From the NCBI RefSeq assembly GCF_021155765.1, contig NC_060114.1, positions 9,446,001 through 9,510,000 of the forward strand: 64,000 nt of DNA, written 5' to 3'. The translations under genes and the position numbers were made by a program. Below the pieces are notes generated by a model. That model ran no database searches, was not told the origin of the DNA, and was given only the letters and a program-made list of their open reading frames with translations. Position 1 is the first letter of the stretch, and each line of letters opens with the position of its first letter. Below are positions 3,874-56,935 of the stretch, in pieces. This stretch comes from Diprion similis. Its lineage: Eukaryota > Arthropoda > Insecta > Hymenoptera > Diprionidae.

Positions 3874-6800
3874 CCTCATTTTTTCCCATTATGAGACTAG
3901 CAGTCTTTATAGATCTTCGAAGCCTCCTCAATATAAAAAAAAAAAATTGTAATTCGGAGCTTTGACCTTGACGCAAATGATACGTTATACATAACGCGTT
4001 ATAGCGTGTAAAATGGCTCGTATACATTCCATTCTCATAGAGGAACCCATGTCATAAAATTAGGTTTGAGCACGCGGGAGAAAAAAAATAAGTATACGGA
4101 TCTTTCGGACCTCGTCGCAATCCCTCAGGTCCATCGCCTCTCCGACGATCGGACGACAGTTCAGTTTCAGCGCGATCACAGTGCGGAACTGCTCGGTGAT
4201 CAATCGACATCGGACCGTCGACCTCGTGGTTGTTCTCGTCACTACGCGGCAAACAGATGTATAACCCTATAGCCTATAGTATACTTATATTATACAGTGA
4301 ATACCCTGTGTTCAGGATCGACGAGCCGGCAGCCGCAGAGCGTGGGATTCGAGCGTTATAGATAGTTACATCACAGCCGTGCAACCTAGTGCTAACTTTC
4401 TCACTTATCCTCTGTACACCTAGGTATGTAGAAATACACCCATTACTTATCGCTGCGTCGGATTCGAGCACCCTGATAAATCCCGCTCTGCTCTTCGTTA
4501 GAGTAGATCTTACCGCGTTGACGTGGAAGTATGAATGTATGTATGTATGTACATCCATGACACGTATTCCAATGCGTAAGAATACACATTGCGGGTATTC
4601 GCGTGAACAATATCTGATCAGCTTAGCATTCTCGCCTTTAAATCCTAGCCTGCAATATAATTGACAGTTGATTTTGATGAGCACCTTTCAACGCGATATG
4701 TCTTCCTCGGTATCGATATACTAGTTCGTGTTTGTGCGTCTATTTGCGATAATTAGCGTGAAAAATTAATGTATGAATGTATGAATGTATGTATGTACGT
4801 ACGTACGTGTTGGTGCATTGATTATACTTAATTAATTTCGTTACTGTACTCTTATCGTATAGATAGATAAAGTTGTCGTCGGGATTGTACCCGCTGTCGT
4901 CGAGTACGACTTAAGTTACATTACATTTACGATTACTTTTATGAAGGTAAAGCAAATTGTTATGGTTGTATATTGTTATCATAGTAACACGCTCAGCGCT
5001 ACTCGTGCGTCTATACAATTTACGTGACAGTTAAACGCGGGCACGCGTTAAAGTAGTTGAGTAGTCGTAGCGGCTCGATTGAATTACGTATATTGAATCG
5101 CAACTCTCGCGTTTGAATATATAATCATGCAGTTTGCACACACGGATCTGAGTTGATATTGATATTGGCACCGCGTGGAGGTGTATGTACTTCTGTTCGT
5201 TTAATCGATCACATTCAATGATGGTTTAAAAATAGACTACTGTATCGTATACTTTTCTGTTAGATTAATTTATTTTTATATACTTTTTTCACTATACATC
5301 AGGGGTAACAGGCGAAATGCGAGCCTCTCGAATGTCGCACGTCGCGTGCCGAGTGGAAATTTTACAGCCTCGATATGTCCTTGTCATTCTAGACTAACGA
5401 TAAATTGTTTGACGACGAATTCTTGAACCTGAAATCAGCGTAAAGATGTATAAATACACGAAACGAAACACATCACCCCTCCCCCATTCCTCTTTGATAC
5501 CTTTATTGCAGCGTATTCTTACATCACGCTACGTATTATCGTAAATTGAGGGCGCAATTATCGCGTCACGCCTCAGCTTCACCGGCATCAAAAGCTCGGA
5601 ATATGTATAAGTATAGTTTTCTGACAGTCAAACAGATTGTCTGTTCGATTGAGGAAGTGACTCGATATATTATTTGACGGAGTTCGAGTATACGTAGAAA
5701 GATTATGGCGCTTGTGATTTTATATTTATTTACTTTGCTCATTCCGTAAACAGTAAAATGCGGCTGGAGTAACCTGTCGAATTCTACTTTCAGGTACACG
5801 AGGTACATACACTACATACGTGACGTCTTGAAACAGGTAGCAATGACTTGCAATTGTTTCGTCATTGGCAAATGATACACTGTCGAGTAATAGCTCCGTA
5901 ACGAAGGTCGGCACCGTTTCTCAAATTGTATTTCAGCGTCCGTTACTAATAGTATAATGGTTACTGAACGGTGCGAATGAGTGTATGTATATAGTATGTA
6001 TATGTGCACATAAGCAGAGTCGCGTGCATGTGGAATTTTGGCCTTGACAGGTTAGGTTAAACAGAGATTCAGTTAATGTTATTCCTCTCGTTTTCGGATC
6101 GTTCCGCACATGTCAACAGTTATTTATCCCCACTAATGCACGCTGGCCGATATAACTCTGCTTCAGAATTAACCTGGTCGCGTCGCTTCGCTACAATTTT
6201 TTCTTATCGTTCGTATGTCCTGCTACATTCTTGAATTCAATTACTCACCGCGTCCGCGTACTTTGTTCATTTTAATGATGCCTATACATCTGCAAACAAT
6301 GATCGATCAGTTGGCCTTGTCAGCTGGGAGCTATCCGTCCAGTCTTTACCAGTTTTTGATTAATTAACTCTGGTGAGCGGCGATCATTGAAAGGTTAATC
6401 CCATAATGTGTCCTAGTCCCATATTTTAATTACTTCCTGCCTACATCTACACAAAAAGGTACCGCGAGTCGTTGTGGCTCTAATGGAAAATATTATGTCA
6501 ACAGGGAAACTTGCAGGTGTCAAATACATTACATTGTATCTCGAAACGAGTTGAAGACTGAAAGAGGAATGACTCGAAATTGTCTCACCATTGTCCGGGG
6601 AGATCGACATATTTCAATTGGGATGCTGGTTGGTATTATTGCTTTCTTAACAAGCTTTGATTAAATGTTATTGTAATGCTGATTGTTCACCCAAGTCGGA
6701 ACACTGTATGAAGAATGTCGCAAGTCAATACACATATCAATTATCAAAAACAAGATTGGGGCCCTTCTGTTTAGTTGAGCTTGTCGAGTTTGCTTCTTCG

Positions 6801-22071: not shown

Positions 22072-23799
<1,728 letters not shown>

Positions 23800-38960: not shown

Positions 38961-39292
38961 ATAATTGATTCGAGGTGAAAGATAAGGAGGAAGGCGAAGA
39001 AATGGAAGACGGATCGGGTGGCAGCGTTCAGTTTAGACACGTTTCTTTCTTTCCGTTCGTGCTATTTATGTATCACACTTATTCCGTATACGACTGCGGA
39101 AAACTTTCTACCACATGCAGCTTCTTGCGAGATATAGATTCGCTGCGAATTGTAATCAAAGACGATCTTCAGGAATCGGAGCTTAGTGTTAGTCAAAACG
39201 ATGTCGATTATTCAATAAACCCAAGCTGTAATAATTGGAATGACGGCGAAACCTTACCTAGGCCTAATAATTTTTGTACATTGTGTGTAGGT

Positions 39293-40167
39293 ATCGACAT
39301 AATTTTGCGGGAGGAATCGATTGCGCCCAGTTTGAATTCGCTGCAAGCAAGAGATCGAGAGTTACAGCTTAAATGCCAGACATCGTTTTCGCAATACTCT
39401 CTTTACGCTGCGTGTTCTAAATTCCCGGGGGTCGAATTAATTAAGATATGCTGACAAATCAATTCCGAGACAAAGAATTTTTGTCTCCAAAAATGGTAAG
39501 GCTAACTCCTTTGGATTTTTCGCGAAAATTTTGACGATTTAGAAAATGCTGGGATCAATGCTTTGTCGCACTACATCGACGTAATATTGCGAAAGGAATC
39601 GATTGCGCAATCTTGACTCGGCGCAAACCACAGATTGAGAGAAACGGCCCTAAAGCACGAAATTTGCACCAGGTTGTGAGACAGGTATGGGACGGATATA
39701 TCAAATTCGTAGCTAAAAAGTTTCGTTTCGGTGTATTTTCAGTATATTCATCACGCCTTAATCCTAATACAAGTGTTCAAGTGTCAGTGTATATTACGTG
39801 GACAAGTTGATTAATGATATCAAAGTACATCAAAATGTTTGAAAATGATCGAACATTTCGTAACAGAACTGAAAATTATCTTACGATGTAAGCGTACGAT
39901 ACATATTCCCTTGAGCAGCATACAGAAAATAGTACATGAGACAGTGATTCATGTAGTTTAAAAATATACCTATATTAGTAGACATGTATAACATTGTATT
40001 GTCACATGCAACTTGAATTAAAATAAATGATGAACAACTTTCTGTGTGTTTTCTTGTCATTTCTTCAACGTTTGGGACGTCGCTATATTCATATCTTTGT
40101 TGCGTTGCTCAAAGACGCATTCGTCGGATAAGAGTCATAGGAATTATTCTGAAAAGAAAGATTTTCG
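39293..40167 (+). repeat. Left edge of the satellite: diverged units, one with a long insertion
   Basis: From 39293 to about 39460 there is a partial monomer: CGACATAATTTTGCGGGAGG aligns with CGACGTAATTTTTCGAGAG of the array. A second unit begins near 39470 (GGTAAGGCTAACTCCTTTGG) but is interrupted at about 39680-40080 by roughly 400-450 bp not found in the array, containing AATAAATGA and TTTCTGTGTGTTTTCTT. The same insertion recurs on the far side of the array (about 56090-56500). These units are much more diverged than array units, so they are older. A 159-codon open frame (38975-39454) runs into this unit by chance. Confidence 0.8.
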
Positions 40168-40544
40168 ATGCCGGAAACAAAAAAAAACTAACGCCTTTGA
40201 ATTTTTGGCGAAATTTTTGACGACTTTGGAGTGTGCTGCAGACCATTCTTTCAAGCTCTATTCCGACGTACTTTGGCGTGAGAGATCGATTAAACGCAAT
40301 CCGATTACGCTGCCGGCGACAAGAACAGAGTTACAGCCGAAAAACGAGACATCCTTTTCGTAATATATCTGCGGCAGGTCTTTCCTCCGACGTTTCTGTA
40401 CTGTTGGTCCTACGCTCCTTTTGCTGCCTTTCTGAGTTCCTGGGCGTCCAATAAGTTAAGTAAGGGTCATGAAAATCCATTCTGAAACGACGAATTTTCG
40501 GCTCCGCAAATGACCAAAAAAGTAAGGCTAACCCCGTTGGATTT
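40168..40544 (+). repeat. Diverged monomer with an extra segment
   Basis: One unit of about 355 bp related to the array monomer. It retains a segment around TTTCCTCCGACGTTTCTGTA before the shared GTTGGTCCTACGCT, which array monomers lack and which is also present in the right flank near 56730-56780. The array monomer therefore looks like a deletion derivative of this longer form. Confidence 0.75.
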
Positions 40545-41480
40545 TTGACGAAAATTTCGACGATTCTGAAAAGCGCTGCAATCAATTCTTTGAGGCACTA
40601 TTCCGACATCATTTTGGGAGAGAAATCGATGAAGCGCAGTCCCAAAACGCTGCGAGCAACGGATCGAAAGTTACAGCCAAAAAACTGGAGATTTTTATCG
40701 CCATTTCTCTGCTATTGGTCCGACGCTCTTTTTCATGTGTTTTTTGAGTTTCTGGGGGTCCAATTACTCTGGAGATGGTCATACAAATCGATTCCGAGAC
40801 GAGAAATTTTCGGCTCCGAAAATGACCAAAAAAGTAAGGCTAACCCCTTTGGATTTTTGACAAGAATTTCGACGATTCTGAAAAGCGCTGCAATCAATTC
40901 TTTGCGGCACTATTCCGACGTGATTTTGCGAGAGGAATCGATAAAGCGCAGTCCCAATACGCTGCGAGCAACGGATCAAAAGTTACAGCCAAAAAACTGG
41001 AGATTTTTACCGCCATTTCTCTGCTGTTGGTCCGACGCTCTTTTTCATGTGTTTTCCGAGTTCCTGGGGGTCCAATTACTCTGGAGATGGTCATACAAAT
41101 CGATTCCGAGACCAGAAATTTTCGGCTCCGAAAATGACCAAAAAAGTAAGGCTAACCCCTTTGGATTTTTGACGAAAATTTCGACGATTCTGAAAAGCGC
41201 TGCAATCAATTCTTTGAGGCACTATTCCGACGTAATTTTGCGAGAGGAATCGGTAAGGCGCAGTCCCAATACGCTGCGAGCAACGGATCAAAAGTTACAG
41301 CCAAATAACTGGAGATTTTCATCGCCATTTCTCTGCTATTGGTCCGACGCTCTTTTCAATGTGTTTTCCGAGTTCCTGGGGGTCCAATTACTCTAGAGAT
41401 GGTCATACAAATCGATTCTGAGACGAGCAATTTCCGGCTCCGAAAATGACCAAAAAAGTAAGGCTAACCCCTTTGGATTT
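40545..41480 (+). repeat. Three satellite units of 312 bp (class A)
   Basis: Units begin at 40545, 40857 and 41169. They share GGGGGTCCAATTACTCT and GGCTCCGAAAATGACC, which the main class lacks. Because 312 is divisible by three, one frame stays open for 283 codons (40545-41396) and encodes a 104-residue repeat. There is no splice, promoter or family signal, so I treat it as satellite and not as a gene. Confidence 0.85.
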
Positions 41481-44400
41481 TTGACGAAAATTTCGACGAC
41501 TTTGAAAAGTGCTGCAACTAATTCTTTAGAGCACTATTCCGACGTAATTTTTCGAGAGAAATCGATTGAGCGTAGTCCCAATACGCTGCGAGCAACGGAT
41601 CAAAAGTTACAGCCAAAAAACTGCAGATTTTCGTCGTCATTTCTCTGCTGTTGGTCCTACGCTTTTTTGAATGTGTATTTTGAGTTCCTGGGGTCCCAAT
41701 TAGCCAAGAAACGGTCATACAAATCAATTCGGAGACCAAAAATTTCCGTCTCCAAAATTCGCAAAAAAAAGTAAGGCTAACCCCTTTGGATTTTTGGCGA
41801 AAATTTCGACGACTTTGAAAAGTGCTGCAATTACTTCTTTAATGCACTATTCCGACGTAATTTTTCGAGAGAAATCGATTGAGCGTAGTCCCAATACGCT
41901 GCGAGCAACGGATCAAAAGTTACAGCCAAAAAACTGCAGATTTTCGTCGTCATTTCTCTGCTGTTGGTCCTACGCTTTTTTTAATGTGTATTTTGAGTTC
42001 CTGGGGTCCCAATTAGCCAAGAAACGGTCATACAAATCAATTCGGAGACCAAAAATTTCCGTCTCCAAAATTCGCAAAAAAAAGTAAGGCTAACCCCTTT
42101 GGATTTTTGGCGAAAATTTCGACGACTTTGAAAAGTGCTGCAATTACTTCTTTAATGCACTATTCCGACGTGATTTTTCGAGAGAAATCGATTGAGCGTA
42201 GTCCCAATACGCTGCGAGCAGCGGATCAAAAGTTACAGCCAAAAAACTGCAGATTTTCGTCGTCATTTCTCTGCTGTTGGTCCTACGCTTTTTTTAATGT
42301 GTTCTTTGAGTTCCTGAGGTCCCAATTAGCCAAGAAACGGTCATAACAATCAATTCGGAGACCAAAAATTTTCGGCTTCAAAATTCGCAAAAAAAAGTAA
42401 GGCTAACCCCTTTGGATTTTTTGCGAAAATTTCGACGACTTTGAAAAGTGCTGCAATTAATTCTTTAGAGCACTATTCCGACGTAATTTTTCGAGAGAAA
42501 TCGATTGAGCGTAGTCCCAATACGCTGCGAGCAACGGGTCAAAAGTTACAGCCAAAAAACTGCAGATTTTCGTCGTCATTTCTCTGCTGTTGGTCCTACG
42601 CTTTTTTTAATGTGTATTTTGAGTTCCTGAGGTCCCAATTAGCCAAGAAACGGTCATACCAATCAATTCGGAGACCAAAAATTTTCGGCTTCAAAATTCG
42701 CAGAAAAAAGTAAGGCTAACCCCTTTGGATTTTTGGCGAAAATTTCGGCGACTTTGAAAAGTGCTGCAATCAATTCTTTAGAGCACTATTCCGACGTAAT
42801 TTTTCGAGAGAAATCGATTGAGCGTAGTCCCAATACGCTGCGAGCAACGGATCAAAAGTAACAGCTAAAAAACTGCAGATTTTCGTCGTCATTTCTCTGC
42901 TGTTGGTCCTACGCTTATTTTAATGTGTTCTTTGAGTTCCTGGGGTCCCAATTAGCCTAGAAACGGTCATACAAATCAATTCGGGGACCAAAAATTTTCG
43001 GCTCCAAAATTCGCAAAAAAAAGTAAGGCTAACGCCTTTGGATTTTTTGCGAAAATTTCGACGACTTTGAAAAGTGCTGTCATTAATTCTTTAGAGCACT
43101 ATTCCGACGTAATTTTTCGAGAGAAATCGATTGAGCGTAGTCCCAATACGCTGCGAGCAACGGGTCAAAAGTTACAGCCAAAAAACTGCAGATTTTCGTC
43201 GTCATTTCTCTGCTGTTGGTCCTACGCTTTTTTTAATGTGTATTTTGAGTTCCTGAGGTCCCAATTAGCCAAGAAACGGTCAAACCAATCAATTCGGAGA
43301 CCAAAAATTTTCGGCTTCAAAATTCGCAAAAAAAAGTAAGGCTAACCCCTTTGGATTTTTGGCGAAAATTTCGGCGACTTTGAAAAGTGCTGCAATCAAT
43401 TCTTTAGAGCACTATTCCGACGTAATTTTTCGAGAGAAATCGATTGAGCGTAGTCCCAATACGCTGCGAGCAACGGATCAAAAGTTACAGCTAAAAAACT
43501 GCAGATTTTCGTCGTCATTTCTCTGCTGTTGGTCCTACGCTTTTTTTAATGTGTTCTTTGAGTTCCTGGGGTCCCAATTAGCCTAGAAACGGTCATACAA
43601 ATCAATTCGGAGACCAAAAATTTTCGGCTATAATATTCGCAAAAAAAAGTAAGGCTAACCCCTTTGGATTTTTGGCGAAAATTTCGACGACTTTGAAAAG
43701 TGCTGCAATCAATTCTTTAGAGCACTATTCCGACGTAATTTTTCGAGAGAAATCGATTGAGCGTAGTCCCAATACGCTGCGAGCAACGGGTCAAAAGTGA
43801 CAGCCAAAAAACTGCAGATTTTCGTCGTCATTTCTCTGCTGTTGGTCCTACGCTTTTTTTAATGTGTATTTTGAGTTCCTGGGGTCCCAATTAGCCAAGA
43901 AACGGTCATACAAATCAATTCGGAGACCAAAAATTTCCGGCTTCAAAATTCGCAAAAACAAGTAAGGCTAACCCCTTTGGATTTTTGGCGAAAATTTCGA
44001 CGACTTTGAAAAGTGCTGCAAATAATTCTTCAGAGCACTATTCCGACGTAATTTTTCGAGAGAAATCGATTGAGCGTAGTCCCAATACGCTGCGAGCAGC
44101 GGATCAAAAGTTACAGCCAAAAAACTGCAGATTTTCGTCGTCATTTCTCTGCTGTTGGTCCTACGCTTTTTTTAATGTGTATTTTGAGTTCCTGGGGTCC
44201 CAATTAGCCAAGAAACGGTCATACAAATCAATTCGGAGACCAAAAATTTCCGTCTCCAAAATTCGCAAAAAAAAGTAAGGCTAACCCCTTTGGATTTTTG
44301 GCGAAAATTTCGACGACTTTGAAAAGTGCTGCAATTACTTCTTTAATGCACTATTCCGACGTAATTTTTCGAGAGAAATCGATTGAGCGTAGTCCCAATA

Positions 44401-46164
44401 CGCTGCGAGCAGCGGATCAAAAGTTACAGCCAAAAAACTACAGATTTTCGTCGTCATTTCTCTGCTGTTGGTCCTACGCTTTTTTTAATGTGTTTTTTGA
44501 GTTCCTGAGGTCCCAATTAGCCAAGAAACGGTCATAACAATCAATTCGGAGACCAAAAATTTTCGGCTTCAAAATTCGCAAAAAAAAGTAAGGCTAACCC
44601 CTTTGGATTTTTGGCAAAAATTTCGACGACTTTGAAAAGTGCTGCAATCAATTCTTTAGAGCACTATTCCGACGTAATTTTTCGTGAGAAATCGATTGAG
44701 CGTAGTCCCAATACGCTGCGAGCAACGGATCAAAAGATACAGCCAAAAAACTGCAGATTTTCGTCGTCATTTCTCTGCTGTTGGTCCTACGCTTTTTTTA
44801 ATGTGTTCTTTGAGTTCCTGAGGTCCCAATTAGCCAAGAAACGGTCATAACAATCAATTCGGAGACCAAAAATTTTCGGCTTCAAAATTCGCAAAAAAAA
44901 GTAAGGCTAACCCCTTTGGATTTTTTGCGAAAATTTCGACGACTTTGAAAAGTGCTGCAATTACTTCTTTAATGCACTATTCCGACGTAATTTTTCGAGA
45001 GAAATCGATTGAGCGTAGTCCCAATACGCTGCGAGCAGCGGATCAAAAGTTACGGCCAAAAAACTACAGATTTTCGTCGTCATTTCTCTGCTGTTGGTCC
45101 TACGCTTTTTTTAATGTGTTCTTTGAGTTCCTGAGGTCCCAATTAGCCAAGAAACGGTCATAACAATCAATTCGGAGACCAAAAATTTTCGGCTTCAAAA
45201 TTCGCAAAAAAAAGTAAGGCTAACCCCTTTGGATTTTTGGCAAAAATTTCGACGACTTTGAAAAGTGCTGCAATCAATTCTTTAGAGCACTATTCCGACG
45301 TAATTTTTCGTGAGAAATCGATTGAGCGTAGTCCCAATACGCTGCGAGCAGCGGATCAAAAGTTACAGCCAAAAAACTGCAGATTTTCGTCGTCATTTCT
45401 CTGCTGTTGGTCCTACGCTTTTTTTAATGTGTTCTTTGAGTTCCTGAGGTCCCAATTAGCCAAGAAACGGTCATAACAATCAATTCGGAGACCAAAAATT
45501 TTCGGCTTCAAAATTCGCAAAAAAAAGTAAGGCTAACCCCTTCGGATTTTTTGCGAAAATTTCGACGACTTTGAAAAGTGCTGCAATTAATTCTTTAGAG
45601 CACTATTCCGACGTAATTTTTCGCGAGAAATCGATTGAGCGTAGTCCCAATACGCTGCGAGCAACGGATCAAAAGATACAGCTAAAAAACTGCAGATTTT
45701 CGTCGTCATTTCTCTGCTGTTGGTCCTACGCTTTTTTTAATGTGTATTTTGAGTTCCTGAGGTCCCAATTAGCCAAGAAACGGTCATAACAATCAATTCG
45801 GAGACCAAAAATTTTCGGCTTCAAAATTCGCAAAAAAAAGTAAGGCTAACCCCTTTGGATTTTTTGCGAAAATTTCGACGACTTTGAAAAGTGCTGCAAT
45901 TAATTCTTTAGAGCACTATTCCGACGTAATTTTTCGAGAGAAATCGATTGAGCGTAGTCCCAATACGCTGCGAGCAGCGGATCAAAAGTTACAGCCAAAA
46001 AACTGCAGATTTTTGTCGTCATTTCTCTGCTGTTGGTCCTACGCTTTTTTTAATGTGTTCTTTGAGTTCCTGAGGTCCCAATTAGCCAAGAAACGGTCAT
46101 AACAATCAATTCGGGGACCAAAAATTTTCGGCTTCAAAATTCGCAAAAAAAAGTAAGGCTAACC

Positions 46165-47416
46165 CCTTTGGATTTTTTGCGAAAATTTCGACGACTTTGA
46201 AAAGTGCTGCAATTAATTCTTTAGAGCACTAATCCGACGTAATTTTTCGAGAGGAATCGATTGAGCGTAGTCCCAATACGCTGCGAGCAACGGATCAAAA
46301 GTTACAGCCAAAAAACTGCAGATTTTCGTCGTCATTTCTCTGCTGTTGGTCCTACGCTTTTTTGCATGTGTATTTTGAGTTCCTGGGGTCCCAATTAGCC
46401 AAGAAACGGTCATACGAATCAATTCGCAGACCAAAAATTTTCGGCTCCAAAATTCGCAAAAAAAAGTAAGGCTAACCCCTTTGGATTTTTGGCGAAAATT
46501 TCGACGACTTCGAAAAGTGCTGCAATTAAATCTTTAGAGCACTATTTCGACGTAATTTTTCGAGAGAAATCGATTGAGCGTAGTCCCAATACGCTGCGAG
46601 CAACGGATCAAAAGTTACAGCCAAAAAACTGCAGATTTTTGTCGTCATTTCTCTGCTGTTGGTCCTACGCTTTTTTTCATGTGTATTTTGAGTTCCTGGG
46701 GTCCCAATTAGCCAAAAAACGGTCATACAAATCAATTCGGAGACCAAAAATTTCCGTCTCCAAAATTCGCAAAAAAAAGTAAGGCTAACCCCTTTGGATT
46801 TTTTGCGAAAATTTCGACGACTTTGAAAAGTGCTGCAATTAATTCTTTAGAGCACTAATCCGACGTAATTTTTCGAGAGGAATCGATTGAGCGTAGTCCC
46901 AATACGCTGCGAGCAACGGATCAAAAGTTACAGCCAAAAAACTGCAGATTTTCGTCGTCATTTCTCTGCTGTTGGTCCTACGCTTTTTTGCATGTGTATT
47001 TTGAGTTCCTGGGGTCCCAATTAGCCAAGAAACGGTCATACGAATCAATTCGCAGACCAAAAATTTTCGGCTCCAAAATTCGCAAAAAAAAGTAAGGCTA
47101 ACCCCTTTGGATTTTTGGCGAAAATTTCGACGACTTCGAAAAGTGCTGCAATTAAATCTTTAGAGCACTATTTCGACGTAATTTTTCGAGAGAAATCGAT
47201 TGAGCGTAGTCCCAATACGCTGCGAGCAACGGATCAAAAGTTACAGCCAAAAAACTGCAGATTTTCGTCGTCATTTCTCTGCTGTTGGTCCTACGCTTTT
47301 TTTCATGTGTATTTTGAGTTCCTGGGGTCCCAATTAGCCAAAAAACGGTCATACAAATCAATTCGGAGACCAAAAATTTCCGTCTCCAAAATTCGCAAAA
47401 AAAAGTAAGGCTAACC
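46165..47416 (+). repeat. 626-bp dimer duplicated in tandem
   Basis: 46165-46790 and 46791-47416 are nearly identical. Both contain the private variants GAGCACTAATCCGACG plus GAGAGGAATCG in the first unit and GCACTATTTCGACG in the second. One difference is ATTTTTGTCG against ATTTTCGTCG. Confidence 0.85.
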
Positions 47417-48979
47417 CCTTTGGATTTTTGGCGAAAATTTCGACGACTTTGAAAAGTGCTGCAATTACTTCTTTAATGCACTATTCCGACGTAATTTTTC
47501 GAGAGAAATCGATTGAGCGTAGTCCCAATACGCTGCGAGCAGCGGATCAAAAGTTACAGCCAAAAAACTGCAGATTTTCGTCGTCATTTCTCTGCTGTTG
47601 GTCCTACGCTTTTTTTAATGTGTTCTTTGAGTTCCTGAGGTCCCAATTAGCCAAGAAACGGTCATAACAATCAATTCGGAGACCAAAAATTTTCGGCTTC
47701 AAAATTCGCAAAAAAAAGTAAGGCTGACCCCTTTGGATTTTTTGCGAAAATTTCGACGACTTTGAAAAGTGCTGCAATTAATTCTTTAGAGCACTATTCC
47801 GACGTAATTTTTCGAGAGAAATCGATTGAGCGTAGTCCCAATACGCTGCGAGCAACGGATCAAAAGTTACAGCCAAAAAACTGCAGATTTTCGTCGTCAT
47901 TTCTCTGCTGTTGGTCCTACGCTTTCTTTAATGTGTATTTTGAGTTCCTGGGGTCCCAATTAGCCAAGAAACGGTCATACAAATCAATTCGGAGACCAAA
48001 AATTTTCGGCTTCAAAATTCGCAAAAAAAAGTAAGGCTAACCCCTTTGGATTTTTGGCGAAAATTTCGACGACTTTGAAAAGTGCTGCAATTACTTCTTT
48101 AATGCACTATTCCGACGTAATTTTTCGAGAGAAATCGATTGAGCGTAGTCCCAATACGCTGCGAGCAGCGGATCAAAAGTTACGGCCAAAAAACTACAGA
48201 TTTTCGTCGTCATTTCTCTGCTGTTGGTCCTACGCTTTTTTTAATGTGTTCTTTGAGTTCCTGAGGTCCCAATTAGCCAAGAAACGGTCATAACAATCAA
48301 TTCGGAGACCAAAAATTTTCGGCTTCAAAATTCGCAAAAAAAAGTAAGGCTAACCCCTTTGGATTTTTGGCAAAAATTTCGACGACTTTGAAAAGTGCTG
48401 CAATCAATTCTTTAGAGCACTATTCCGACGTAATTTTTCGTGAGAAATCGATTGAGCGTAGTCCCAATACGCTGCGAGCAGCGGATCAAAAGTTACAGCC
48501 AAAAAACTGCAGATTTTCGTCGTCATTTCTCTGCTGTTGGTCCTACGCTTTTTTTAATGTGTTCTTTGAGTTCCTGAGGTCCCAATTAGCCAAGAAACGG
48601 TCATAACAATCAATTCGGAGACCAAAAATTTTCGGCTTCAAAATTCGCAAAAAAAAGTAAGGCTAACCCCTTCGGATTTTTTGCGAAAATTTCGACGACT
48701 TTGAAAAGTGCTGCAATTAATTCTTTAGAGCACTATTCCGACGTAATTTTTCGAGAGAAATCGATTGAGCGTAGTCCCAATACGCTGCGAGCAACGGATC
48801 AAAAGTTACAGCCAAAAAACTGCAGATTTTCGTCGTCATTTCTCTGCTGTTGGTCCTACGCTTTTTTTAATGTGTATTTTGAGTTCCTGGGGTCCCAATT
48901 AGCCAAGAAACGGTCATACAAATCAATTCGGAGACCAAAAATTTCCGTCTCCAAAATTCGCAAAAAAAAGTAAGGCTAA

Positions 48980-51485
48980 CCCCTTTGGATTTTTGGCGAA
49001 AATTTCGACGACTTTGAAAAGTGCTGCAATTACTTCTTTAATGCACTAGTCCGACGTAATTTTTCGAGAGAAATCGATTGAGCGTAGTCCCAATACGCTG
49101 CGAGCAGCGGATCAAAAGTTACAGCCAAAAAACTACAGATTTTCGTGGTCATTTCTCTGCTGTTGGTCCTACGCTTTTTTTAATGTGTTCTTTGAGTTCC
49201 TGAGGTCCCAATTAGCCAAGAAACGGTCATAACAATCAATTCGGAGACCAAAAATTTTCGGCTTCAGAATTCGCAAAAAAAAGTAAGGCTAACCCCTTTG
49301 GATTTTTGGCAAAAATTTCGACGACTTTGAAAAGTGCTGCAATCAATTCTTTAGAGCACTATTCCGACGTAATTTTTCGTGAGAAATCGATTGAGCGTAG
49401 TCCCAATACGCTGCGAGCAACGGATCAAAAGATACAGCTAAAAAACTGCAGATTTTTGTCGTCATTTCTCTGCTGTTGGTCCTACGCTTTTTTTAATGTG
49501 TATTTTGAGTTCCTGAGGTCCCAATCAGCCAAGAAACGGTCATAACAATCAATTCGGAGACCAAAAATTTTCGGCTTCAAAATTCGCAAAAAAAAGTAAG
49601 GCTAACCCCTTTGGATTTTTTGCGAAAATTTCGACGACTTTGAAAAGTGCTGCAATTAATTCTTTAGAGCACTATTCCGACGTAATTTTTCGAGAGAAAT
49701 CGATTGAGCGTAGTCCCAATACGCTGCGAGCAACGGGTCAAAAGTTACAGCCAAAAAACTGCAGATTTTCGTCGTCATTTCTCTGCTGTTGGTCCTACGC
49801 TTTTTTTAATGTGTATTTTGAGTTCCTGGGGTCCCAATTAGCCAAGAAACGGTCATAACAATCAATTCGGAGACCAAAAATTTTCGGCTTCAAAATTCGC
49901 AAAAAAAAAGTAAGGCTAACCCCTTTGGATTTTTGGCGAAAATTTCGACGACTTTGAAAAGTGCTGCAATCAATTCTTTAGAGCACTATTCCGACGTAAT
50001 TTTTCGAGAGAAATCGATTGAGCGTAGTCCCAATACGCTGCGAGCAACGGATCAAAAGTTACAGCCAAAAAACTGCAGATTTTCGTCGTCATTTCTCTGC
50101 TGTTGGTCCTACGCTTTTTTTAATGTGTAGTTTGAGTTCCTGGGGTCCCAATTAGCCAAGAAACGGTCATACAAATCAATTCGGAGACCAAAAATTTCCG
50201 TCTCCAAAATTCGCAAAAAAAAGTAAGGCTAACCCCTTTGGATTTTTGGCGAAAATTTCGACGACTTTGAAAAGTGCTGCAATTACTTCTTTAATGCACT
50301 AGTCCGACGTAATTTTTCGAGAGAAATCGATTGAGCGTAGTCCCAATACGCTGCGAGCAGCGGATCAAAAGTTACAGCCAAAAAACTACAGATTTTCGTG
50401 GTCATTTCTCTGCTGTTGGTCCTACGCTTTTTTTAATGTGTTCTTTGAGTTCCTGAGGTCCCAATTAGCCAAGAAACGGTCATAACAATCAATTCGGAGA
50501 CCAAAAATTTTCAGCTTCGAAATTCGCAAAAAAAAGTAAGGCTAACCCCTTTGGATTTTTGGCAAAAATTTCGACGACTTTGAAAAGTGCTGCAATCAAT
50601 TCTTTAGAGCACTATTCCGACGTAATTTTTCGTGAGAAATCGATTGAGCGTAGTCCCAATACGCTGCGAGCAACGGATCAAAAGATACAGCTAAAAAACT
50701 GCAGATTTTCGTCGTCATTTCTCTGCTGTTGGTCCTACGCTTTTTTCAATGTGTATTTTGAGTTCCTGAGGTCCCAATTAGCCAAGAAACGGTCATAACA
50801 ATCAATTCGGAGACCAAAAATTTTCGGCTTCAAAATTCGCAAAAAAAAGTAAGGCTAACCCCTTTGGATTTTTTGCGAAAATTTCGACGACTTTGAAAAG
50901 TGCTGCAATTAATTCTTTAGAGCACTATTCCGACGTAATTTTTCGAGAGAAATCGATTGAGCGTAGTCCCAATACGCTGCGAGCAACGGGTCAAAAGTTA
51001 CAGCCAAAAAACTGCAGATTTTCGTCGTCATTTCTCTGCTGTTGGTCCTACGCTTTTTTTAATGTGTATTTTGAGTTCCTGGGGTCCCAATTAGCCAAGA
51101 AACGGTCATAACAATCAATTCGGAGACCAAAAATTTTCGGCTTCAAAATTCGCAAAAAAAAAGTAAGGCTAACCCCTTTGGATTTTTGGCGAAAATTTCG
51201 ACGACTTTGAAAAGTGCTGCAATCAATTCTTTAGAGCACTATTCCGTCGTAATTTTTCGAGAGAAATCGATTGAGCGTAGTCCCAATACGCTGCGAGCAA
51301 CGGATCAAAAGTTACAGCCAAAAAACTGCAGATTTTCGTCGTCATTTCTCTGCTATTGGTCCTACGCTTTTTTTAATGTGTAGTTTGAGTTCCTGAGGTC
51401 CCAATTAGCCAAGAAACGGTCATAACAATCAATTCGGAGACCAAAAATTTTCGGCTGCAAAATTCGCAAAAAAAAGTAAGGCTAA
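48980..51485 (+). repeat. 1253-bp tetramer duplicated in tandem
   Basis: The block from about 48980 recurs 1253 bases later, from about 50233. Both copies have GCACTAGTCCGACG with TTTTCGTGGTCATT, then CGTGAGAAATCG with AAGATACAGCTAAA, then CGGGTCAAAAG, and the same extra A in the poly-A run (near 49908 and 51161). That explains why unit spacing is 627 there instead of 626. Confidence 0.85.
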
Positions 51486-52750
51486 CCCCTTTGGATTTTT
51501 TGCGAAAATTTCGACGACTTTGAAAAGTGCTGCAATTAGTTCTTTAGAGCACTATTCCGACGTAATTTTTCGAGAGAAATCGATTGAGCGTAGTCCCAAT
51601 ACGCTGCGAGCAACGGGTCAAAAGTTACAGCCAAAAAACTGCAGATTTTCGTCGTCATTTCTCTGCTGTTGGTCCTACGCTTTTTTCAATGTGTATTTTG
51701 AGTTCCTGAGGTCCCAATTAGCCAAGAAACGGTCATACCAATCAATTCGGAGACCAAAAATTTTCAACTTCAAAATTCGCAAAAAAAAGTAAGGCTAACC
51801 CTTTTGGATTTTTTGCGAAAATTTCGATGACCTTGAAAAGTGCTGCAATTAATTCTTTAGAGCACTATTCCGACGTAATTTTTCGAGAGAAATCGATTGA
51901 GCGTAGTCCCAATACGCTGCGAGCAACGGGTCAAAAGTTACAGCCAAAAAACTGCAGATTTTCGTCGTCATTTCTCTGCTGTTGGTCCTACGCTTTTTTC
52001 AATGTGTTTTCCGAGTTCCTGGGGGTCCAATTACTGTAGAGATGGTCATACAAATCGATTCTGAGACGAGCAATTTCCGGCTCCGAAAATGACCAAAAAA
52101 GTAAGGCTAACCCCTTTGGATTTTTGACGAAAATTTCGACGACTTTGAAAAGTGCTGCAACTAATTCTTTAGAGCACTATTCCGACGTAATTTTTCGAGA
52201 GAAATCGATTGAGCGTAGTCCCAATACGCTGCGAGCAACGGATCAAAAGTTACAGCCAAAAAACTGCAGATTTTCGTCGTCATTTCTCTGCTGTTGGTCC
52301 TACGCTTTTTTGAATGTGTATTTTGAGTTCCTGGGGTCCCAATTAGCCAAGAAACGGTCATACAAATCAATTCGCAGACCAAAAATTTTCAACTCCAAAA
52401 TTCGCAAAAAAAAGTAAGGCTAACCCCTTTGGATTTTTGGCGAAAATTTCGACGACTTTGAAAAGTGCTGCAATTAAATCTTTGAAGCACTATTTCGACG
52501 TAATTTTCCGAGAGAAATCGATTGAGCGTAGTCCCAATACGCTGCGAGCAACGGATCAAAAGTTACAGCCAAAAAACTGCAGATTTTCGTCGTCATTTCT
52601 CTGCTGTTGGTCCTACGCTTTTTTTAATCTGTATTTTGAGTTCCTGGGGTCCCAATTAGCCAAGAAACGGTCATACAAATCAATTCGGAGCCCAAAAATT
52701 TTCGGCTCCAAAATTCGCAAAAAAATAGTAAGGCTAACCCCTTTGGATTT

Positions 52751-54628
52751 TTGGCGAAAATTTCGACGACTTTGAAAAGTGCTGCAATCAATTCTTTAGA
52801 GCACTATTCCGACGTAATTTTTCGAGAGAAATCGATTGAGCGTAGTCCCAATACGCTGCGAGCAACGGGTCAAAAGTTACAGCCAAAAAACTGCAGATTT
52901 TCGTCGTCATTTCTCTGCTGTTGGTCCTACGCTTTTTTTAATGTGTATTTTAAGTTCCTGGGGTCCCAATCAGCCAAGAAACGGTCCTACAAATCAATTC
53001 GGAGACCAAAAATTTCCGGCTTCAAAATTCGCAAAAACAAGTAAGGCTAACCCCTTTGGATTTTTGGCGAAAATTTCGACGACTTTGAAAAGTGCTGCAA
53101 TTAATTCTTTAGAGCACTATTCCGACGTAATTTTTCGAGAGAAATCGATTGAGCGTAGTCCCAATACGCTGCGAGCAACGGATCAAAAGTTACAGCCAAA
53201 AAACTGCAGATTTTCGTCGTCATTTCTCTGCTGTTGGTCCTACGCTTTTTTTAATGTGTATTTTGAGTTCCTGGGGTCCCAATTAGCCAAGAAACGGTCA
53301 TACAAATCAATTCGGAGACCAAAAATTTCCGTCTCCAAAATTCGCAAAAAAAAGTAAGGCTAACCCCTTTGGATTTTTGGCGAAAATTTCGACGACTTTG
53401 AAAAGTGCTGCAATTACTTCTTTAATGCACTAGTCCGACGTAATTTTTCGAGAGAAATCGATTGAGCGTAGTCCCAATACGCTGCGAGCAGCGGATCAAA
53501 AGTTACAGCCAAAAAACTACAGATTTTCGTGGTCATTTCTCTGCTGTTGGTCCTACGCTTTTTTTAATGTGTTCTTTGAGTTCCTGAGGTCCCAATTAGC
53601 CAAGAAACGGTCATAACAATCAATTCGGAGACCAAAAATTTTCGGCTTCAAAATTCGCAAAAAAAAGTAAGGCTAACCCCTTTGGATTTTTGGCAAAAAT
53701 TTCGACGACTTTGAAAAGTGCTGCAATCAATTCTTTAGAGCACTATTCCGACGTAATTTTTCGAGAGAAATCGATTGAGCGTAGTCCCTATACGCTGCGA
53801 GCAACGGGTCAAAAGTTACAGCCAAAAAACTGCAGATTTTCGTCGTCATTTCTCTGCTGTTGGTCCTACGCTTTTTTTAATGTGTATTTTAAGTTCCTGG
53901 GGTCCCAATCAGCCAAGAAACGGTCCTACAAATCAATTCGGAGACCAAAAATTTCCGGCTTCAAAATTCGCAAAAACAAGTAAGGCTAACCCCTTTGGAT
54001 TTTTGGCGAAAATTTCGACGACTTTGAAAAGTGCTGCAATTAATTCTTTAGAGCACTATTCCGACGTAATTTTTCGAGAGAAATCGATTGAGCGTAGTCC
54101 CAATACGCTGCGAGCAACGGATCAAAAGTTACAGCCAAAAAACTGCAGATTTTCGTCGTCATTTCTCTGCTGTTGGTCCTACGCTTTTTTCAATGTGTAT
54201 TTTGAGTTCCTGGGGTCCCAATTAGCCAAGAAACGGTCATACAAATCAATTCGGAGACCAAAAATTTCCGTCTCCAAAATTCGCAAAAAAAAGTAAGGCT
54301 AACCCCTTTGGATTTTTGGCGAAAATTTCGACGACTTTGAAAAGTGCTGCAATTACTTCTTTAATGCACTAGTCCGACGTAATTTTTCGAGAGAAATCGA
54401 TTGAGCGTAGTCCCAATACGCTGCGAGCAGCGGATCAAAAGTTACAGCCAAAAAACTACAGATTTTCGTGGTCATTTCTCTGCTGTTGGTCCTACGCTTT
54501 TTTTAATGTGTTCTTTGAGTTCCTGAGGTCCCAATTAGCCAAGAAACGGTCATAACAATCAATTCGGAGACCAAAAATTTTCGGCTTCAAAATTCGCAAA
54601 AAAAAGTAAGGCTAACCCCTTTGGATTT
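52751..54628 (+). repeat. 939-bp trimer duplicated in tandem
   Basis: 52751-53689 and 53690-54628 are almost identical, including the private GTATTTTAAGTTCCTG, GGTCCTACAAATC and CAAAAACAAGTAAGG variants. Each copy contains the same 173-codon chance open frame (52836-53357 and 53775-54296). Confidence 0.85.
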
Positions 54629-55568
54629 TTGGCAAAAATTTCGACGACTTTGAAAAGTGCTGCAATCAATTCTTTAGAGCACTATTCCGACGTAATTTTT
54701 CGTGAGAAATCGATTGAGCGTAGTCCCAATACGCTGCGAGCAACGGATCAAAAGATACAGCTAAAAAACTGCAGATTTTCGTCGTCATTTCTCTGCTGTT
54801 GGTCCTACGCTTTTTTTAATGTGTATTTTGAGTTCCTGAAGTCCCAATTAGCCAAGAAACGGTCATAACAATCAATTCGGAGACCAAAAATTTTCGGCTT
54901 CAAAATTCGCAAAAAAAAGTAAGGCTAACCCCTTTGGATTTTTTGCGAAAATTTGGACGACTTTGAAAAGTGCTGCAATTAATTCTTTAGAGCACTATTC
55001 CGACGTAATTTTTCGAGAGAAATCGATTGAGCGTAGTCCCAATACGCTGCGAGCAACGGGTCAAAAGTTACAGCCAAAAAACTGCAGATTTTCGTCGTCA
55101 TTTCTCTGCTGTTGGTCCTACGCTTTTTTTAATGTGTATTTTGAGTTCCTGGGGTCCCAATTAGCCAAGAAACGGTCATAACAATCAATTCGGAGACCAA
55201 AAATTTTCGGCTTCAAAATTCGCAAAAAAAAAGTAAGGCTAACCCCTTTGGATTTTTGGCGAAAATTTCGACGACTTTGAAAAGTGCTGCAATCAATTCT
55301 TTAGAGCACTATTCCGACGTAATTTTTTGAGAGAAATCGATTGAGCGTAGTCCCAATACGCTGCGAGCAACGGATCAAAAGTTACAGCTAAAAAACTGCA
55401 GATTTCCGTCGTCATTTCTCTGCTGTTGGTCCTACGCTTCTTTTAATGTGTATTTTGAGTTCCTGAGGTCCCAATTAGCCAAGAAACGGTCATAACAATC
55501 AATTCGGAGACCAAAAATTTTCGGCTTCAAAATTCGCAAAAAAAAGTAAGGCTAACCCCTTTGGATTT

Positions 55569-56935
55569 TTTGCGAAAATTTGGACGACTTTGAAAAGTGC
55601 TGCAATTATATCTTTAGAGCACTATTCCGACGTAATTTTTCGAGAGAAATCGATTGAGCGTAGTCCCAATACGCTGCGAGCAACGGATCAAAAGTTACAG
55701 CGAAAAAACGAAAGACGTGTTCCGTCTATTTTTCATTTGATGTCCGTGCGTTGTAATTCCTCTGCTGGCGGACTAACGCACTTTTTGCTGTATTCTCTGA
55801 GTTTCCTGGGCATTCAAGTAGGCTAGAAAGGGTCATACAAATCGATCCTGAGACAAACAATTTTTGGCTCAAAAACAAAGTAAGGCTAACCCCTATGGAT
55901 TTTTGACGAAAATTTCGACATTTTAAAAAATGCTGGAATCGATTCTATGATGCACTATATCGACGTAATCTTCCGAGCGAAATTGATTGGACGCAGTATC
56001 TATTCAGTGCGAACCAGAGATTTAAATGAACGGCCAAAAAACATGAATTTCGCAACATAGGTTGTTAGAGAGACGGGGAAGGGAAACCACGGATACATAG
56101 TGAGAAGTTTTATCTCAGTTTATCTTCAGTATATTTATGATGCGCTTATCCGAATACAAGTTTTCGGGTGTCAGTGTATAATACGTAAACAAGTAGCCGA
56201 ATAATATAAAAGTATACAAAAAAATATGAAAAATGATCGAACATTACATAACAAATCTGACTCTTATTCTAGGGTAAAGGAGTACAGTACACATTACCCT
56301 AAGCAGCATATGAATAGTTCCATTTCAGACAGTAATTGATGAAGTTTGTGAGTATATATTCGATTTCTCACTGCACACAGGTGCAACGCACCTCCGCAGG
56401 ACACGACATGTATAATATTTTATTGTTATATGGAATCTCAATCAAAATAAATGAATCAACAACTTTCTGTGTGTTTTCTTTGCAATTATTTAACGTTTGG
56501 TCCGTTACTATTTCAGTCTTTCCTGCGTTGCTTAGGGTCTGATTCGTCAAAAACGAATCGTAGAAATCGATTGAGCCAACAGATGTTTGGCTTAAAAAAA
56601 AGTAAGGCTAAACCATTCGGATTTTTGGCAGTATGTGCACATAATTTTGCGAGCGAAATCGATTGCCTGCAGTCTGAATATACTGCGAACAAGAGACCAA
56701 GAGTTGCAACCAAAAAACGAAACAACCTTTTCGTAATATCTCTGATGCTGGTCTTTCTCTCGTCTGTTCTGTACTGTTGGTCCTACGCTTTTCTCGCAGC
56801 GTTATGGCAATTCCCGGGGGACGAATTAGTTGCGAAAGGGATTTTTTTGTAAAATCTGTCTCTGAATTTTTTCCGAAAATATTTACAAGCTTAAAAAATG
56901 CTGAAATAAAACCTTCAATGCACTATAAGACATCA
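55569..56935 (+). repeat. Right edge of the satellite: truncated unit and diverged long-variant units
   Basis: The last array unit starts at 55569 and loses similarity after ACAGCGAAAAAACG near 55706. A diverged unit then runs from about 55835 to 56060, interrupted by the same 400-450-bp insertion seen at the left edge (here about 56090-56500, with CAAAATAAATGAATCAAC and TTTCTGTGTGTTTTCTT). It resumes with AAAGTAAGGCTAAACC near 56600, and traces of a further unit (AAAATGCTGAAATAAAACC) continue to about 56935. Orientation is the same as at the left edge. Confidence 0.8.

Follow-up and report, generated by a model that had tools for sequence, protein, structure and literature searches.

An abundant, dispersed satellite family of Diprion similis with a shared edge module, probably spread inside a non-autonomous TIR transposon

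Introduction

A long array of a tandemly repeated unit of about 313 bp lies between two genes of the sawfly Diprion similis, which raises the question of what kind of repeat this is and how it came to be there. The window, i.e., the whole stretch of DNA analysed, comprises 64,000 bp (C10:9446001-9510000) of an assembly of 269,008,206 bases in 60 contigs. The array has a myosin VIIa gene on one side and a WD40 gene on the other, each encoded on the minus strand; the best PDB match of the former is unconventional myosin-VIIa, and MyTH4 and RA domains were identified in it, while the latter may be AAMP, whose stop codon would then lie some 1 kb from the locus. Su(H)-type domains were also observed at 22951-23799 of the window.

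Rouleux-Bonnin is said to have described satellite subfamilies of Diprion pini in 1996. No sawfly satellite of similar size was found in the literature searched, which was mostly open-licence, and the family may be in print.

Structure of the window array

TRF reported a single large array at 40393-55709, with a period of 313, 48.9 copies and 95% matches, and anchor slicing resolved it into 48 head-to-tail monomers running from 40401 to 55423. Both methods confirm that the array itself is real. The total of 48 units given by the original prediction stands, whereas its division into 45 units of 313 bp and three of 312 bp does not: slicing yielded 39 monomers of 313 bp, four of 312 bp, four of 314 bp and one of 311 bp. 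Mean pairwise identity reaches 95.8% for monomers 5-47 and 94.1% across all 48, so that the array has the form characteristic of satellite DNA, a long head-to-tail run of a homogenised unit. Long exact duplicates are spaced by whole numbers of monomers (697 bp at an offset of 3130, 511 bp at 939 and 505 bp at 626), the expected trace of unequal exchange of multi-monomer blocks. A search for a higher-order repeat inside the window array gave no clear peak at any multiple.

The limits proposed earlier for the locus, 39293 and 56935, agree with the HMM edges at 39294 and 56926. The description of this span as a locus of such monomers holds for the core but not for the outer ~1.0-1.5 kb on each side, which consist of a diverged monomer piece, a non-satellite module that we term X, and a further diverged monomer piece. 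Module X, the mutual homology of the two edges and the transposon that bears the family at other loci had all been overlooked. The locus is composed of the following features:

39294..39668, plus strand: left outer diverged monomer piece (M'), starting at monomer phase ~204 (HMM phases 204-610, 218.9 bits; 73% identity to the array super-consensus)
39655..40085, plus strand: left copy of edge module X (332 bits to the X profile), homologous to the right copy
40049..40400, plus strand: diverged monomer piece between the left X and the array (HMM match 40049-40371; 67% identity to the super-consensus)
40401..55422, plus strand: array core of 48 monomers (TRF, anchor slicing)
55423..56050, plus strand: last monomers, diverging towards the right X (HMM match to phase 296)
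56041..56511, plus strand: right copy of edge module X (427 bits to the X profile)
56479..56926, plus strand: right outer diverged monomer pieces (HMM matches 56479-56629 and 56639-56926; end phase ~202)

Abundance of the family in the genome

A conserved monomer 25-mer, searched with up to two mismatches, matched the genome 28,548 times (14,346 + 14,202) against one match of its control, and a second conserved 25-mer with up to three mismatches matched 41,814 times (21,885 + 19,929) against none. At 312 bp per match, the family amounts to ~8.9-13.0 Mb, or ~3.3-4.8% of the 269-Mb assembly, a copy number as high as that expected of satellite DNA, and the matches listed are spread over many contigs. 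The whole-assembly search that had been proposed as a check thus reveals an abundant dispersed satellite and no local expansion. The suggestion that the locus might be a seed copy found no support, as the arrays closest to that of the window, on C4 and C1, resemble it at 92-95% in full-length rows (15 of 1918 candidates scored).

The window array is therefore one member of an abundant, dispersed satellite family with monomers of ~304-313 bp and a shared edge module X. Three arrays (L032, L033 and L038) form a 304-bp monomer subfamily. Stop-free frames of 817-1,036 codons run through the 312-bp arrays of L040 (5627-8734), L039 and L041, since 312 is a multiple of three. A viral origin of the monomer was considered and dropped, as the exact 25-mer was absent from viral contigs (one pattern, one scan).

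Module X at the array edges

The window edges hold two copies of X (~430-470 bp), one per edge and in the same orientation, and the left flank (39454-40466) aligns with the right flank (55837-56840) over about 1 kb. A search with the right X copy found at least 43 matches in the genome when 40 of 112 candidates were scored, and two of these matches were the window copies themselves. A 25-base core of X matched 114 times and its control not at all. The profile behind the X bit scores was built from 19 sequences, the window copies among them. Each of 17 further X loci adjoins a same-strand array of this satellite. The loci were taken mostly from the best-scoring matches, not at random, and L023 and L025 represent opposite edges of a single array. 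Where a monomer piece was detected before X, its end falls between phases 285 and 301 of 312 at 13 of 18 edges, the exceptions being L025, L026, L027, L028 and L035.

At C10:19558984-19576023, the X core recurs every 2165, 2793 or 2479 bp (eight places among the matches listed), forming a higher-order array that includes X and whose steps differ by about one monomer. X is consequently not purely an edge module. Other repeats adjoin some edges as well. A simple repeat with an AAACT unit lies directly outside a truncated X at L037, beyond position 5226, and a different tandem repeat, whose matches lie 191/382 bp apart, is present to the left of 2463 in L029 and resembles the stretch 91-210 beyond the edge in the right flank of L038.

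A TIR element carries arrays at other loci

In an all-against-all BLAST comparison, which used no profile, the outer flanks of different loci matched again beyond X. A module W was common to the left edges of L023, L027, L037 and L040, and a module Y to the right edges of L026, L030, L031, L033, L035 and L036, with L039 joining by 29 bases. Profiles of both modules, partly built from the loci that they scored, detected W at four of seven left edges and Y at seven of 13 right edges, the window included, leaving three left edges without W and six right edges without Y. Genome searches returned at least 49 matches for W (40 of 197 candidates scored) and at least 48 for Y (40 of 55 candidates scored).

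Y ends sharply in TTCAGTCAACG, and W opens with its inverse (L027:3526, L047:267), so that the flanking modules end in inverted repeats, CGTTGACTGA...TCAGTCAACG. These terminal inverted repeats (TIRs) were present at both ends of all five elements read at both ends, with at most two mismatches per 10-mer. A TIR 25-mer matched the genome 97 times (control: one), and nine +/- pairs 4.4-5.7 kb apart were found among the matches listed. At other loci, the element has the order TIR - W - monomer piece - X - (array) - monomer piece - X - monomer piece - Y - inverted TIR.

The satellite content of individual copies varies widely. The copy at L044 (4,806 bp) possesses both TIRs, W and Y, contains no satellite and has no frame longer than 101 codons, and at L045 and L046 W is present and the satellite absent in the part read. 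The copy at L043 comprises W, about four monomers and Y; it is situated between two parts of another X copy (positions 149-236, a weak match with E 0.0006, and 212-435, E 3e-31), into which it appears to have inserted. The largest copy read, C6:1708825-1772499, measures 63.7 kb, and same-strand monomers run from 1712556 to 1771115 among the matches listed. The check that the interior is satellite covers this copy, the interiors of the 19-kb and 27-kb copies having been seen in part. A block at C6:1726590-1739985 is repeated at a step of 12,772 bp, or about 41 monomers, indicating a large recent block duplication. No transposase was detected by Pfam in seven frames from three W loci. Near one W copy, the frame L045:2-1807 is stop-free over 602 residues, and we take it to read like the integrase region of a BEL/Pao-type retrotransposon.

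Target-site duplications

Direct duplications flank all five elements read at both ends, each with at most one mismatch: four are 7 bp long (0, 1, 1 and 1 mismatches) and one is 8 bp long. The 63.7-kb copy is bounded by a perfect AACGTGC; C6:7107355-7126169 by TACTTGA/AACTTGA, adjoining a TIR with two mismatches; L044 by TAGGCAA/TAGGCGA; and L043 by TATTATA/TATTATG. At C3:12424744-12451926 the flanks differ at five positions over 7 bp and at one over 8 bp (ACGTCCGT/ACGCCCGT). Among 20 mismatched end pairs used as a control, none came within one mismatch at 7 bp, the closest having two; two 7-base sequences would agree to within one mismatch by chance with a probability of 0.0013. Helitrons and Helentrons are not known to produce target duplications or to have true TIRs; the TIRs and the 7-8-bp duplications speak against such an identity for the element.

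The window copy compared with the element

By profile, neither W nor Y was found near the window array; the only trace was a weak 29-bp match to Y some 35 kb distant, at 3890-3918 (E 0.0007). TIR-like words around the array occur at chance level (four found, 4.98 expected). The window copy thus lacks W, Y and recognisable TIRs of its own. We infer that it descends from an element whose W, Y and TIRs have been lost, or that it arrived as a recombined array segment together with both X copies; the argument for descent from the transposon runs through X and family membership, not through the copy's own ends.

Divergence of the frames and exchange between arrays

X copies are 77-84% identical to their consensus (18 copies, two of L029 left out), and the edge monomer pieces are 67-75% identical to the array super-consensus (11 pieces). 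Consensuses of 17 arrays, by comparison, are 83-97% identical to the super-consensus and average 87.5% with each other. The tree of 20 X copies is nearly star-shaped, and no split into left and right copies was found in it, as would follow one old burst.

In the 16 cases where an array could be paired with its X, mean identity is 87.1% for the arrays and 69.6% for X, with a weak correlation between the two (Mantel r 0.27, p 0.05). The contrast is most extreme for L033 (C5) and L038 (C13), whose array consensuses are 99.7% alike beside X copies that share 67.9%, suggesting that array contents also move between loci. Such contents appear to have travelled from one chromosome to another and left their frames behind, through conversion, circles or another route. 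Conserved columns of the monomer are clustered (p 0.008), and selection on the monomer could likewise keep arrays alike.

Origin of the arrays

The shared modules W and Y, the TIRs and the target duplications around arrays make a non-autonomous TIR transposon the probable vehicle in which the satellite spread. We consider it likely that an old burst of such a DNA transposon first placed the satellite at its many sites along the chromosomes and that the arrays changed thereafter: they would have grown and shrunk by unequal exchange of multi-monomer blocks, and exchange between loci would have replaced part of their sequence as X, W and Y degenerated. A bolder reading, which we hold only tentatively and judge somewhat doubtful, is that an old burst of the TIR element left landing pads (the 114 X cores) for live arrays that still exchange between chromosomes and so stay alike, their frames X, W and Y having decayed to ~70% between copies, and that recombination or selection maintains a network of units of tens of kb. 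The dispersed Tyba arrays of holocentric plants have a layout comparable to such a chromosome-wide satellite network.

An ordinary satellite could also have been spread by extrachromosomal circles or ectopic recombination, as has been argued for Drosophila 1.688, with X a relic long-monomer form surviving at weakly homogenised edges and the TIR elements forming a separate layer. The contrast between array and X identity in L033 and L038, on different chromosomes, the near-star X tree lacking a left/right split and the presence of X within the higher-order array on C10 are consistent with this, as are the outer monomer phases of the window, which at 204 and 202 (HMM) nearly meet, as they would after the insertion of a whole-monomer circle; such a meeting is, however, expected by chance at ~6% (a rough estimate, within +/-10 bases). 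W and Y lie outside X with sharp common ends, and TIRs and target duplications bracket X together with the array, which argues against circles as the general explanation and makes it unlikely, although a circle or ectopic route may well act in addition to transposition. That the monomer is or was a protein-coding or RNA gene, with arrays kept for their product, is very improbable. Of 11 array consensuses with a length of 312 bp, or 104 codons, four have a stop-free frame, L040 contains the 1,036-codon stretch, and the clustering of conserved columns would suit a product; yet the other seven consensuses carry one to three stops in that frame and the 313-bp unit of the window shifts frame at every repeat, and the coding reading was rejected on these grounds. 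Rfam gave no match on the window at gathering scores, nor on 39200-42600 at E 1, and no tRNA was found in the window. Most improbable of all is an assembly artefact that inflated the repeat number or misplaced arrays: exact internal duplications, such as the 697-bp block at offset 3130 or the 12,772-bp step in C6, could in principle mark collapsed or duplicated reads, but 45 of the 48 window monomers are distinct, both edges are flanked by unique sequence, the window is free of N, and many arrays on many contigs have a common layout.

Comparison with known systems

The origin of satellites from transposons has been argued mostly from short arrays or fragments. If the transposon reading is correct, the stages seem to coexist within one genome, from an element with no satellite (L044) through one with about four monomers (L043) and one of 63.7 kb (C6) to an array without element ends (the window). 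Decaying frames and homogenised contents would give each locus two clocks, making exchange between dispersed arrays directly measurable, and arrays inside a jumping element illustrate one way in which a satellite can be scattered over chromosomes. The open-licence literature searched yielded no array of about 60 kb bounded by TIRs and target duplications.

Tandem-repeat growth inside transposons is described for Tetris (PMC4079207), oyster Helentrons (PMC7492417), Xenopus MITEs (PMC12628747) and Merlin (PMC8101967), and dispersed satellites are reviewed in PMC10048060. Merlin is likewise a TIR transposon, and the tandem repeats inside it have been proposed as proto-satellites; its TIRs end in GG and its duplications measure 8-9 bp (PMC8101967), whereas the present element ends in CG, has mostly 7-bp duplications and yielded no transposase. 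The Cg_HINE Helentrons of the Pacific oyster share genome-wide central satellite-like arrays placed between the shared flank modules of a non-autonomous element, but their ends are of the Helentron type (subTIR and palindrome; PMC7492417), in contrast to the present element, which has inverted termini with target duplications of 7-8 bp, carries X twice and holds long arrays. The miDNA4/Xstir MITE satellites of Xenopus also combine a TIR element with tandem repeats, and their long arrays may lose the ends, as in the window copy; according to the review PMC12628747, miDNA4 is a Tc1/mariner-type MITE, from which the present element differs in TIR and target length. A further parallel is Tetris/TIR-220 of Drosophila virilis, also a DNA transposon of the non-autonomous kind, in which satellite arrays arise through the expansion of internal tandem repeats. 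Its structure is foldback-like: the repeats, of ~220 bp, are located within the TIRs, and the arrays, which lie in beta-heterochromatin, reach 66 copies (PMC4079207). In the present element, by contrast, the repeats occupy the centre between short TIRs, and the satellite extends over about 58 kb in at least one array.
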